NCBI GenBank assembly: GCA_011620345.1 | Contig: WOZJ01000014.1 | Coordinates: forward strand, 1 to 50,439 | Direction of reading: 5' to 3' | DNA length: 50,439 bases | DNA from: Nitrospirota bacterium | GTDB lineage: Bacteria > UBA2233 | Shown here: piece after piece, positions 33,052 through 42,750 of the stretch | Numbering within the stretch: the first letter of the stretch is position 1 | Layout: every line of letters starts with the position of its first letter | Translations under genes and position numbers: made by a program | Notes under the pieces: model-generated | The model's input: the letters and a program-made list of their open reading frames with translations, nothing else | Databases searched by the model: none | What the model was told of the DNA's origin: nothing

Positions 33052-33114
33052 CCCAAATCCTGGCTGGGTCGTATACTAAACCTTTTTAAGAACATGTCAA
33101 ATTAGGAATTGGCA

Positions 33115-33561
33115 ATGGCACCAAAGGTCTTTCCCGATTGGACGGTTTTTATTCAGATGGCGATCTTTCTTCTGGCCTACCTTGTAGTGAAGGTGCTGGT
33201 GATCCGTCCTTATTCGAGGCTTAAAGGCTTTCGCGAGGGACTGACGTCGAAACGGATCGAAGAAGCACAGGCGCTCGTTCAGAAAGCAGAGGCGCTGAAG
33301 GCCTCCTACGAGGCCAGCCTTACTGATGTCAGAAAAGAAGCGGACAGCAATCGGGATGCTATTTTCAAGGGGTATGAGCAGAAAGCCCGCGGGGTTGAGG
33401 CACAAGCGAAAAAAGAGCTCCATGACTTGCTTCAGCTTCGGCAAAAACAGATTCAGGAAAGTCTTGAGGCGATGGAATCTCAGTTTCGCGGCAACAAAGA
33501 GTTGCTAAAGCAGCTGTTCTTTGAAGTCTTGACGGGCAAACGGCCGAAGAGGATGGGTTAA
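33115..33561 (+). CDS. atpF': ATP synthase F0 subunit b' (second b-type stalk subunit)
   Basis: Peripheral-stalk subunit of 148 residues with one N-terminal membrane segment (about residues 8-30, VFIQMAIFLLAYLVVKVLVI) and a long charged alpha-helical coiled coil, the shape of F0 b subunits. It is the first of two consecutive b-type genes, so it is called b'. The start is ATG 33115 with AGGA 7 nt upstream; TTG 33109 is possible. The stop shares a base with the next ATG (TAATG). A TATACT box at 33072-33077 may be part of a promoter, but no clear -35 accompanies it. Confidence 0.85.
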   Translation: MAPKVFPDWTVFIQMAIFLLAYLVVKVLVIRPYSRLKGFREGLTSKRIEEAQALVQKAEALKASYEASLTDVRKEADSNRDAIFKGYEQKARGVEAQAKKELHDLLQLRQKQIQESLEAMESQFRGNKELLKQLFFEVLTGKRPKRMG

Positions 33562-34061
33562 TGGAGGGGATTTGGTCGCTGGCTCCTGGTTTTTTGAACC
33601 TTGCACTGTTCGTGGGGATCGTAGCGTATTTCGCCAAGGGCGCGATCCGGGGGTTCTTCCAGCAAAGGGCCGATGGGGTGGCCGCCTCTATCAAGGAGGC
33701 CACCAGAGCGTACGAAGAGGCGCGTTCCAGCTTAGAGCTCTGGGAGAAAAAACACGCCATGCTCGAGGCGGAAGCGAGGACAATCCTCGAACACGCCGAA
33801 AAAAGGGCTCGAAGTACTGGGGAAGAATTAGTCCGTCAGGCCGAGGCGTACTCAAGGCGCATGCTCGAGGAAGCGAGGCTTAGGATGGAGACCAACGAGC
33901 GGGATGCGCTCGAAGCAAGGAGGCGTACGTTCTTGAAGCAGCTTATTGGAGAGCTCAAAGGGGTGTTCAAGGAGAGGCTTAGCGAAGACGAGCGGTATGT
34001 GCTCGTTCGGTCCGCGATCGGACGGCTAGCCAGCCTTCAGCAAGAGAGGGGAAAAGGATGA
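33561..34061 (+). CDS. atpF: ATP synthase F0 subunit b
   Basis: Second b-type stalk subunit, 166 residues. The membrane segment is near the N terminus (FLNLALFVGIVAYFAKGAI) and is followed by a long helix rich in Arg, Glu and Ala with a typical RSTGEELVRQAEAYSRRMLE pattern. Paired b' and b make a heterodimeric stalk in many delta-proteobacteria and phototrophs. The start overlaps the b' stop and the stop overlaps the atpH start (ATGA), so the three are translationally coupled. Confidence 0.87.
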   Translation: MEGIWSLAPGFLNLALFVGIVAYFAKGAIRGFFQQRADGVAASIKEATRAYEEARSSLELWEKKHAMLEAEARTILEHAEKRARSTGEELVRQAEAYSRRMLEEARLRMETNERDALEARRRTFLKQLIGELKGVFKERLSEDERYVLVRSAIGRLASLQQERGKG

Positions 34062-38503: not shown

Positions 38504-38926
38504 ATGGCCGACCAGATTCCCGAAAAGCTTCAGTTGAAGCTGTATACGCCCGAAAAGAAGATTGTCGAGGCCGAAGTCCACGAGGTCATAGCTCCTGGTA
38601 TCGAGGGTGAGTTCGGGGTGTTGCCGGGCCACATTCCATTCATCACCGCGCTGAAGATCGGCGAGCTGACATTCCGGACCGGGCAAAAGGTAGAGCGTCT
38701 TGCCGTGGCCTGGGGATACGCCGAAGTCCTGCCCGAGCAGGTGACGATCCTTGCCGAAACGGCAGAGCTAGCGAGCCAAATCGACGTTGAAAGGGCCATC
38801 CGGGCGAAGGAACGGGCCGAAGCGCAGCTTAGGAAGCTCTCCTTGGAAGAGAAAGAATACGCCCAAGCCCTTGTCTCGCTCCAGCGGGCGATCAACCGCA
38901 TTCAAGTCGCAAGCAAGGGGCGCTAG
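38504..38926 (+). CDS. atpC: ATP synthase F1 subunit epsilon
   Basis: Inhibitory rotor subunit, 140 residues. The N-terminal beta-sandwich has LKLYTPEKKIVEAEVHEVIAP, then EGEFGVLPGHIPFITAL, and the C-terminal two-helix domain (about residues 90-138) has AIRAKERAEAQLRKL. It ends the ATP synthase cluster 6 nt before glmU. The F0 a (atpB) and c (atpE) genes are not in this cluster and must lie elsewhere. Confidence 0.94.
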   Translation: MADQIPEKLQLKLYTPEKKIVEAEVHEVIAPGIEGEFGVLPGHIPFITALKIGELTFRTGQKVERLAVAWGYAEVLPEQVTILAETAELASQIDVERAIRAKERAEAQLRKLSLEEKEYAQALVSLQRAINRIQVASKGR

Positions 38927-38932
38927 GATCCT

Positions 38933-40201
38933 ATGGATCGCCGACCGGGGGGCGCCTTTCGTGGCGTCCTCTTCTTGGAGCTAGAGACCTTTCCGTTGGC
39001 GATTCAGCCCATCCTTGGGTCTCCTTTGGTCTTTGGGCCTTTTCGTGCGCTCAAGGATGTGCTTGGGGAAGAAGAGGTCGGTGTTGCGGCGCCGCAGGAT
39101 AAACAGTCGTACTTGGAGCGGATGCTTGGGCTTACCTCTCCGCTCATTCCTGTCATGCCAGGCCAAGATGCGCTAATGGCATGCCTTCTTAGCATTTCCC
39201 CGGCCCAAAAAGGTCCTTTCGTGCTCCTTTCAGGGACCCTTCCGTTTTTAAGCTCCGGCGCCTTGGGCGTATGTCTTGATAGGCACGCAAGCGAAGGAGC
39301 TTTTGCTTCGGTCCTGATCGTCAAGGGACCCGAGGAGCAAGAAGGCGCATCCTTGAGGATCGGGGGGGCTATTTTGAACGATCTTGGTCCATTTCCACAT
39401 GCGGAAACCTTTAAAGAGCTCTTGGGCGTTTGGGATGCCTTGGGAAAGCGCGTGAATTATGTAAAGCTCGAACCGCCCGACGGGTTAGATGTGAGATTTC
39501 CCGGCGAGGTTTTATGGGCGTTTGACCGGGCAAGGCGGCTTAGGCTCGAAGCGCTCCTGAATTCGGGTGTGCTGTTTGAAGACCCGAACTCTGCGCATAT
39601 CGAATCCTCCGTTACTATCGAAAAGGGCGTTCGTATTGGCAAAGGGGTGGTGCTTCAAGGAAAGACAAGCCTTGGCGAAGGTGTGTGTATAGGCCCCTAC
39701 TGCATCCTAAAAGACGCCGTGCTTCATCGTGAGGTGGAAGTTTTGGCACACAGCGTGTTAGAGGGCTGCGAAGTGATGGAAAAGGCCAAGGTTGGCCCGT
39801 TTGCCAGGGTTCGGCCGGAAACCGTTATCGGAAAGCGCGCCAGCGTTGGTAACTTTGTCGAGCTTAAAAAAACTACGCTCGGCGAGGGGGTGAAGGCGAA
39901 CCACCTGAGCTATTTGGGCGATTGCGAGGTTGGAGCCTTTAGCAACATAGGGGCCGGCGTGATCACGTGTAATTTTGATGGCGTGCGCAAGCATCGGACG
40001 AGGATTGCAGAGCATGCGTTTATAGGGTCCGACTGCCAGCTCGTGGCTCCCGTAGAGATCGGGCACCATGCCTACATCGGGGCCGGCTCCACAATCACCC
40101 GGGATGTTCCGGCCCGGGCCTTGGCCGTCAGGCGTGCCAAGCTTAGGTCTGTCCTTGATTGGGCGAGCCCGAAAGCGAGCGAAGACGAGCGGGAGGGGTA
40201 G
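38933..40201 (+). CDS. glmU: GlmU homologue: intact acetyltransferase, degenerate uridylyltransferase domain
   Basis: The 422-residue protein aligns end to end with GlmU (about 456 residues). The C-terminal left-handed beta-helix (from about residue 225) keeps [20 protein letters not shown], the catalytic His324 in [21 protein letters not shown] and [14 protein letters not shown], so glucosamine-1-phosphate acetyltransferase activity is expected. The N-terminal half keeps the fold outline but not the chemistry: the nucleotide loop LAAGxGTRM-x-PK is replaced by [14 protein letters not shown], the Gln-x-Gly-Thr segment is gone, the metal Asp in YGDVP reads SGTLP, and the EGVNNR Asn is missing. 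A stop codon 9 nt upstream in frame rules out a missed N terminus. It is followed at once by glmS. Confidence 0.88.
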
Positions 40202-40204
40202 GGC

Positions 40205-42028
40205 ATGTGCGGGATTGTAGGCTACATCGGCAGGGGACAGGCCCAAGAGATTCTCTTGGAGGGGCTAAAGCGCCTTGCGTACAGGGGGTACGATTCCTGC
40301 GGCATCGCTACCTATAATTCCGGAGAGCTTGCCCTTAGGAAGGCCCTGGGGAAGGTTACCAATCTGGAGACGCTATTAAACGAACAGCCGGCTAAAGGGA
40401 GCGTGGGCATTGGGCATACGAGATGGGCAACCCATGGTCGGCCTTCGCTTGTAAATGCCCATCCTATCCGTGTAGGCGCTTCTATTGTCGTCCATAACGG
40501 TATCATCGAAAACTATGCGGAACTAAAAGATGAGCTCCTAGGAAGAGGAAGGGTGTTCGAGACAGATACGGACACCGAGATTATCGCCCAGTTGATCGAG
40601 GAGGGAGTCCAATCAGGAAAGAGCCCAGAAGAGAGCCTCGATGAGGCTTTAGGCCGCTTGAGAGGTTCTTATGCGATCTTATTCTTTTGTCTTTTCAAGC
40701 CGGAAGCGCTCTTTCTTGCCAGAAAAGACCTCCCGCTTGTCGTTGGCAGGGGCAGGTTGGGGTTGTTTGCTTCGAGCGATACGTTCGCGATCGCTCCGTT
40801 TGCCGACGAGATCGGTTATGTGCCGGACGGAGCAGTGGTGGTCCTTCAAGGTGAAAGCCCTAAGGTGTTCCGCGAGAAAAGCGGGGCCGAGGCGTTTACG
40901 CTCGAAAGGCTCCTTGTCCGGGATATAGACATGGAGAAGAAGGGCTTCAAGCACTTCTTGCTGAAAGAGATCTTCGAACAGCCCCTGGCATTGACGAGGA
41001 CGCTCGAAGCGTACGTCAATGAAGATCTGGTCGCCTTTGACTCCCTAACCCACCTGGAGAATGAGAATCTCAACGACTTAGAGGTCGTCTACCTCATAGG
41101 TTGCGGGACAGCCTACCATGCGGCCATGCTTGGAAAGCGCTTCTTTCAGGAATTTGCCGGGATTGAGGCGGTTAGCGAAAGTGCATCCGAGTTCAGGCTT
41201 CGCGGGTATCTCAACCCAAAGAGCTGTGGCGTTTTGATTTCCCAATCCGGGGAGACCGCAGACACGCTCGCCGCCCTCAAGATGCTCCAAAAAGCAGGAA
41301 TCCCCTCGTTTGCGATCACCAACGTGGGTCATTCGACGCTTGCTAGAAGCACGCCCTCCCTCCTGACAAAGGCGGGCCCGGAGGTTTCGGTTGCCTCTAC
41401 GAAGGCGTTTACCACGCAGGTTCTCGTTTTGTACCTTCTTGCCCTTTGGCTTGGGCTCAGAAGAGGCAGGATGGATCCTAATACCCTAGACTCTAAACTC
41501 TCGACCCTCAGGGGGCTTGCAGCCTCGATAGACCAGGTGTTGAACCTCTTTCCAGTGGTTAAACGGCTTGCGGGTGGGCTTTTGGATGCTGGGTACCTTG
41601 TGTACCTAGGCAGGGGTTCTTTCATGCCGCTTGCACTCGAGGGTGCGCTCAAAATCAAGGAGATTGCCTACGTTCATGCAGAGGGTTACCCGGCGGGGGA
41701 AATGAAGCACGGACCGATCGCGTTGATTGAGCCCGGCGTTCACGTTATTGCACTTCTCGATGCCAACGATGGGATCCATCGAGACAAGATGCTAGCAACG
41801 ATCGAGGAGATGCGTTCGCGGGGGGCAGAGGTTCTTTTGGTGCACACCGGCCATCTTGATAAGGCATGCGCATTCCCGACGCTTGCCTTGCCCCCGGTTG
41901 GATGCCCTTTCCTTGCCACGATCCCGGTTGCCGTAATGCTTCAGCTGCTCGCCTATGCCGTAGCGGTGCTTAAAGGTACAGATGTCGACCAGCCGAGGAA
42001 CTTGGCCAAGAGCGTCACGGTAGAGTAG
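40205..42028 (+). CDS. glmS: Glutamine-fructose-6-phosphate aminotransferase (isomerising)
   Basis: First step of UDP-GlcNAc synthesis, giving glucosamine 6-phosphate. The 607 residues comprise an N-terminal glutaminase domain (catalytic Cys2 after Met removal, MCGIVGYIG; RGYDSCGIA; GIGHTRWATHGRPS) and two SIS sugar-isomerase domains (about 290-420 and 460-600, with IGCGTAYHAA, ISQSGETADTLAAL and the C-terminal DVDQPRNLAKSVTVE that ends all GlmS proteins). It lies 3 nt after glmU, so two UDP-GlcNAc genes are co-expressed with ATP synthase. A terminator follows at 42046. Confidence 0.97.
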   Translation: MCGIVGYIGRGQAQEILLEGLKRLAYRGYDSCGIATYNSGELALRKALGKVTNLETLLNEQPAKGSVGIGHTRWATHGRPSLVNAHPIRVGASIVVHNGIIENYAELKDELLGRGRVFETDTDTEIIAQLIEEGVQSGKSPEESLDEALGRLRGSYAILFFCLFKPEALFLARKDLPLVVGRGRLGLFASSDTFAIAPFADEIGYVPDGAVVVLQGESPKVFREKSGAEAFTLERLLVRDIDMEKKGFKHFLLKEIFEQPLALTRTLEAYVNEDLVAFDSLTHLENENLNDLEVVYLIGCGTAYHAAMLGKRFFQEFAGIEAVSESASEFRLRGYLNPKSCGVLISQSGETADTLAALKMLQKAGIPSFAITNVGHSTLARSTPSLLTKAGPEVSVASTKAFTTQVLVLYLLALWLGLRRGRMDPNTLDSKLSTLRGLAASIDQVLNLFPVVKRLAGGLLDAGYLVYLGRGSFMPLALEGALKIKEIAYVHAEGYPAGEMKHGPIALIEPGVHVIALLDANDGIHRDKMLATIEEMRSRGAEVLLVHTGHLDKACAFPTLALPPVGCPFLATIPVAVMLQLLAYAVAVLKGTDVDQPRNLAKSVTVE

Positions 42029-42096: not shown

Positions 42097-42390
42097 CTAC
42101 CGGCCGTATCCCATACGCGGCTTTGGCTTGGGAGGTCTTGCCTCGTTCACGCGGAGCGTACGCCCCGAGAAGTTCTGGCCGTCTAAGGCCTCCTTGGCCT
42201 TCACCGCATCGCTCTGTGAGCCCATTTCCACGAAGCCGAAACCTTTGCCCTCGATTACTCGAACGCTCTTGACTTCGCCGTACTTCGAAAATAGCTCCTT
42301 GAGCTGCTCGTCGTCTACAGAATAGGTTAGGTTGCCTACGTAAAGTTTACTGCCTTGCACTTCTGTGTCCTTCTGCGAAAAAAAGTCCAT
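42097..42390 (-). CDS. Small RRM-domain RNA-binding protein
   Basis: Single RNA recognition motif protein of 97 residues. RNP2 reads LYVGNLTY and RNP1 reads KGFGFVEM, with the usual beta-alpha-beta spacing; a short Arg/Pro/Gly-rich tail ends the protein. Similar bacterial RRM proteins (cyanobacterial Rbp type) bind RNA and some are cold-inducible; the role here is unknown. Two starts are possible: ATG 42399 lies almost on top of its ribosome binding site, while ATG 42390 has AGGGA 9 nt upstream and is chosen. It is preceded by a long 360-nt unexplained region with its own promoter. Confidence 0.88.
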   Translation of the reverse strand: MDFFSQKDTEVQGSKLYVGNLTYSVDDEQLKELFSKYGEVKSVRVIEGKGFGFVEMGSQSDAVKAKEALDGQNFSGRTLRVNEARPPKPKPRMGYGR

Positions 42391-42750
42391 ACGAGCCATT
42401 CCCTGTTCGTTTAGTTGATTCTGTGAAGGATAAAAGAAAAAACAGTCGGTTCCGCGCTACCTCATGCCCTCAAACAGCACACCTCCTTATGCTCCGTTCT
42501 CGTTGCAATTCCCTTGCCTTTCTAGGGGTAAGCGCAGCTCGCCCCTTTGGACAGGCTCGGAGCCAACCTTGTGATGTGACCGCTTGTGTGCCGTGACGAG
42601 CGAGAACCGGTACGGACAAGAGATGACAAAAGGACCAACTTTCCATCCAGGCGGGCAACCTACGCATCGTTTCACCCGATCATTCTCATCGGCAGCATCT
42701 CCGGAAGTTCCGAGGACACCTGATAAGTCCATCACAAAGACATTTTTAGG
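42391..42750 (-). ncRNA. Possible structured leader or small RNA upstream of RRM gene
   Basis: This is a 360-nt stretch without a recognised gene. A promoter at its right end (42748-42776) would start a minus-strand transcript near 42741. Several local hairpins are visible on that strand, for example CCGAT-gagaatg-ATCGG and CGGAA-c-TTCCG, and a run of six T follows at about 42437-42442 without a strong stem before it. An 82-codon minus-strand frame (42487-42735) is open but resembles no family I recognise. It could be a long 5' UTR, a small RNA or a decayed element. Confidence 0.3.

Follow-up and report, generated by a model that had tools for sequence, protein, structure and literature searches.

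A GlmU variant with a degenerate uridylyltransferase domain and an intact acetyltransferase domain

Well-studied bacteria cannot live without the uridylyltransferase of GlmU, which is a drug target. A GlmU gene that appears to have lost this activity raises the question of how the cell obtains its UDP-GlcNAc and what becomes of the domain left behind. Here, we have analysed such a gene in a window of 50,439 nucleotides taken from a draft genome of 1.80 Mb (72 contigs, 96.8% complete). The open reading frame, profile searches and a residue table together indicate that the 422-residue GlmU variant encoded at 38933..40201 on the forward strand consists of a dead uridylyltransferase domain and an intact acetyltransferase domain.

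The boundaries of the reading frame are exact: it starts with the ATG at 38933, separated by just two codons from the in-frame stop on its 5' side, and its TAG stop codon ends at 40201. On the 5' side the gene is 6 bp from atpC (38504..38926, forward strand), the last of the F1 ATP synthase genes, and on the 3' side 3 bp from glmS (40205..42028, forward strand), which encodes glutamine--fructose-6-phosphate aminotransferase and belongs to the same pathway. The gene order in E. coli is likewise atpC-glmU-glmS. Since the variant occupies the usual place of glmU, it is no stray paralogue. Of the 80 named GlmU loci, 32 had both an atp gene and glmS within 4 kb flanks; the 11 mainly non-proteobacterial loci that we checked had glmS alone or neither atp nor glmS. 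In the same region, the ATP synthase cluster begins with two neighbouring AtpF-like (b, b') genes at 33109-34061, with no atpB or atpE noticed beside them, and a small RRM-type RNA-binding protein of 100 residues is encoded 3' of glmS on the opposite strand (42097-42399).

The uridylyltransferase half (aa 1-205; 38933..39547, forward strand) is degenerate. When 120 GlmUs, 117 of them intact, were aligned with MAFFT and numbered on E. coli GlmU, nine residues (G14, R18, K25, Q76, G81, D105, E154, Y197 and N227) were invariant in 117/117 intact enzymes, and none of the nine was kept with confidence in the variant, which bears out the loss of uridylyltransferase residues claimed in the first-pass annotation. 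The Gly-rich nucleotide loop is deleted, its site being taken by the FLELETF region (aa 14-20; 38972..38992, forward strand) in place of LAAGxGTRM, where the alignment is uncertain, and K25 is replaced by Leu. YGDVP of intact GlmU is replaced by SGTLP (aa 100-104; 39230..39244, forward strand), in which the metal-binding Asp105 has become Thr, and GVNN by DVRF (aa 186-189; 39488..39499, forward strand), with loss of the second metal ligand Asn227. The residues with which GlmU holds UTP, GlcNAc-1-P and Mg2+ have thus disappeared from the variant. At the position of E154, one aligner places a Glu in a badly aligned stretch and another a gap. Neither the G-loop nor the GDxP motif was found in the other two forward frames of the gene, so no frameshift is hiding these motifs.

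The N-terminal part is also shortened, as had been noticed before, by a larger amount than the roughly 30 residues then given: it has 190 residues compared with a median of 228 in intact GlmUs, so that about 38 are absent, and the G-loop itself accounts for part of them. Profile searches tell the same story of two unequal halves. The NCBIfam GlmU profile TIGR01173 matches aa 203-414 only, with 283 bits, which falls short of its cutoff of 366.85. Pfam finds hexapeptide repeats and no nucleotidyltransferase domain in the protein. Of the full-length alignment with GlmU that had been proposed, the C-terminal half thus stands firmly, while the N-terminal half is supported weakly, by a profile-profile match to GlmU over aa 19-130 with a probability of 54% and E=1.3e-4, which provides moderate support for homology.

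In the acetyltransferase half, the site is preserved. Eleven of the 12 residues checked are identical to those of intact GlmUs, namely R333, K351, H363, Y366, N377, A380, N386, K392, S405, A423 and R440, and they include the catalytic His (E. coli H363; codon 39902-39904, forward strand). The exception is Y387, which is Phe in the variant and also in two intact enzymes. In a larger alignment, all nine of the site residues R333, K351, H363, Y366, N377, N386, K392, S405 and R440 were again present. The earlier claim of an intact acetyltransferase half is borne out by these counts. In the same larger set, the number of ten key uridylyltransferase residues kept was bimodal, with 121 proteins keeping 9-10 and 28 keeping five or fewer, and the nine acetyltransferase residues were complete in 28/28 of the latter. 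As the variant carries both hexapeptide repeats and the GlmU acetyltransferase residues, which mark a GlcN-1-P N-acetyltransferase, it would work like the acetyltransferase half of GlmU.

To describe the fold, we built an AlphaFold2 model with an alignment of 49 relatives. The left-handed beta-helix of the acetyltransferase domain (aa 206-414; 39548..40174, forward strand) is clear, with pLDDT mostly 95-99. The N domain is predicted as alternating strands and helices with low to middling confidence (pLDDT ~46-91 as means of ten-residue blocks), and a Foldseek comparison of the predicted model with full GlmU structures gave query TM-scores up to 0.85. The same program run on the single sequence, with no alignment, gave a pLDDT of 31. 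Since the guide alignment is full of intact GlmUs, the GlmU-like fold predicted for the N domain indicates compatibility and not proof.

Our set contains a single further genome of the genus (draft, 93% complete), which encodes a 422-residue counterpart with 91% identity, the identical losses and the identical neighbours. This one species pair, on which selection in the genus was measured, differs in the dead domain by 19 nonsynonymous changes over 462 sites and 21 synonymous changes over 154 sites (pN/pS 0.30, p=1e-4), and in the acetyltransferase domain pN/pS is 0.19. Selection on the dead N domain is somewhat relaxed relative to the acetyltransferase, yet purifying. The genus mate, which is in the same state, and the purifying selection acting on the degenerate half show that the variant reflects neither decay nor a frameshift, and with the residue table they support the first-pass view of an open frame without simple decay.

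Where, then, does UDP-GlcNAc come from? The organism requires it because lpxD-fabZ-lpxA-lpxI is present in its genome. We made an inventory of nucleotidylyltransferases in this genome by family profile searches. PF00483, PF12804 and TIGR01173 together matched GalU, a MocA-like protein, MobA, KdsB, IspD and CofC, and no second GlmU N domain was found with these three profiles. A UAP1-type UDPGP was rejected as the missing uridylyltransferase because PF01704 had no match in the genome at E up to 10. GlmR, an accessory uridyltransferase of Listeria and a source of UDP-GlcNAc other than GlmU (PMC10128056), was rejected likewise: GlmR/YvcK was not found, and the single CofD-family protein of the genome is a true CofD (320 bits by TIGR01819 vs 41 bits by TIGR01826). 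IspD, KdsB, MobA, the MocA-like protein and CofC were rejected as each fits its own family or pathway context. As observations in their own right, genes of F420 biosynthesis (CofC with a CofE-like neighbour, and CofD; contigs C4 and C28) occur alongside the lipid A genes, and contig C36 groups genes resembling those of molybdenum hydroxylase large subunits with genes for an XdhC-like protein and a MocA-like cytidylyltransferase.

GalU is the sole PF00483 protein in this genome and likewise in the genus mate, where searches with TIGR01173, PF00483 and PF01933 found no second GlmU N domain, nothing but GalU and no GlmR. The GalU of the window's genome (contig C55) scores 326.3 bits by TIGR01099, just below the cutoff of 326.8, with its motifs kept and an end-to-end match to solved GalUs. 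The normal product of this family is UDP-glucose, and use of GlcNAc-1-P by this GalU would be an additional role; E. coli GalU converts UTP and GlcNAc-1-P to UDP-GlcNAc in vitro (PMC4340641). Since GalU is the only sugar-1-phosphate nucleotidylyltransferase found, it probably forms UDP-GlcNAc in this organism, as suggested by elimination in a draft genome and by the E. coli precedent. The second, separate uridylyltransferase that the first-pass annotation had expected is therefore borne out only in part: family searches found no dedicated enzyme, and the step would fall to an enzyme with another main product.

To see how widespread the loss is, we surveyed 386 genomes from many families and inspected 80 GlmUs that score below the cutoff. 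Most of them show the opposite loss and keep the uridylyltransferase part without the acetyltransferase; Rickettsia GlmU, which lacks the acetyltransferase domain and retains the uridylyltransferase (PMC5615194), is thus the mirror image of the variant, each having one activity left of two. GlmUs with the C-terminal half only are few in the sample: proteins of 340, 342 and 226 residues and one at a contig end. The 340- and 342-residue proteins carry short N-terminal remnants and the 226-residue protein is a stand-alone acetyltransferase (L167, L169 and L166; three lineages). In the lineage of the last, catalysis would seem able to do without the N domain.

GlmUs with a dead N domain of almost full length also occur in Aminicenantes. 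One was found in the MAG Ch100, and about 25 genomes carry such proteins (L146:3461-4801, L195-L224), while some relatives are intact. These proteins diverge to ~48% identity over their full length, and their dead N domains are under purifying selection, with pN/pS 0.17-0.24 in the tested pairs. That of L214 looks half-lost, keeping 5/10 key residues with D105 replaced by N, so the Aminicenantes proteins look like a graded loss series inside one phylum. Like the window's variant, they combine a full acetyltransferase site with a near-full-length dead N domain under purifying selection, but their losses and gene neighbours are different. Among the relatives, which the first-pass annotation proposed to survey for the same losses, the genus mate shares them, and dead-N GlmUs recur in these more distant genomes. 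The window's protein and its counterpart in the genus mate branch apart from the Aminicenantes dead-N clade in an unconstrained acetyltransferase tree, but a single clade of the two groups was not rejected by an AU test (p=0.22); separate loss of the uridylyltransferase in the two groups is thus likely but not proven. Most Aminicenantes dead-N GlmUs are accompanied in their genomes by a 306-residue nucleotidylyltransferase of no named NCBIfam family (L258:520-1437), which is a candidate GlcNAc-1-P uridylyltransferase in that phylum. It is present in 18/19 Aminicenantes genomes G386-G404, in most of the neighbouring G405-G419 and more rarely further out, and the window's genome lacks it. The idea that it is a partner specific to dead-N GlmUs was rejected, since it is common in G405-G419 too, some of which likewise have a dead-N GlmU.

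We argue, with a probability of roughly 0.7, that this GlmU is now a monofunctional acetyltransferase, that GalU uridylylates GlcNAc-1-P and that the dead domain serves in structure or protein contact. GlmS and a presumed GlmM would supply GlcN-1-P. The variant, judging from its conserved residues, would acetylate it to GlcNAc-1-P and release the product, which GalU, by elimination and the E. coli precedent, would then uridylylate. The dead domain would most likely persist as a module of the trimer that serves its structure or its contacts with other proteins. Whether it acts as a scaffold or a docking site, or is slowly decaying, is a guess. A tentative idea, to which we give perhaps one chance in four, is that the domain has been turned to regulation or docking, contacting pathway proteins such as GalU or GlmS for handover of GlcNAc-1-P, in a conversion that happened more than once in bacteria. 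That the domain is instead a functionless remnant on its way to deletion is unlikely: the truncated remnants and the stand-alone acetyltransferase of other lineages, and the relaxation of selection relative to the acetyltransferase, would fit such a course, but its pN/pS is far below 1, and the dead domains of Aminicenantes have stayed near full length under purifying selection despite their divergence. Purifying selection and the predicted nucleotidyltransferase-like fold could also be read as signs of an N domain that still binds nucleotide or transfers uridylyl through a rebuilt site. We consider this very improbable, as the G-loop, Lys25, Gln76, Asp105 and Asn227 are jointly gone and the alignment offers no replacement. 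An intact GlmU that only looks dead through assembly error or frameshift could be imagined in a draft of many contigs, but it is practically refuted by the genus mate, with the same open ORF, neighbours and losses, and by the lack of the motifs in other frames.

For the step assigned to GalU, the rival is a dedicated uridylyltransferase gene that was missed in both assemblies or belongs to an unrecognised family, with GalU making UDP-glucose only. Both genomes are incomplete drafts, and the 306-residue enzyme of Aminicenantes illustrates that other enzymes could serve. We nevertheless find this doubtful, a little less so than the remnant, because the known families were searched in the window's genome without success, the genus mate agrees in the three profiles searched there and the 306-residue enzyme is absent here. 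We therefore retain GalU as the probable source of UDP-GlcNAc.

By family cutoff and defining residues the variant is not a bifunctional GlmU such as that of E. coli (TIGR01173), with which it shares the two-domain layout, the acetyltransferase residues and the gene order, and from which it differs in the missing uridylyltransferase residues, the shorter N domain and the score below cutoff. We file it as a new variant within a known enzyme and not as a new kind of system. A full-text search, with most subscription journals outside its coverage, found no published GlmU with a dead uridylyltransferase domain. Lineages that have discarded the uridylyltransferase but kept its domain suggest that another enzyme, here probably GalU, can take over the synthesis of UDP-GlcNAc, and dead-N GlmUs are natural cases in which to probe roles of the N domain other than catalysis. 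Such proteins may be wrongly called 'bifunctional' by automatic annotation. In the list of relatives there is one genus mate and all others share no rank below domain with the window's genome, whose lineage looks like an isolated phylum within the genome collection used.
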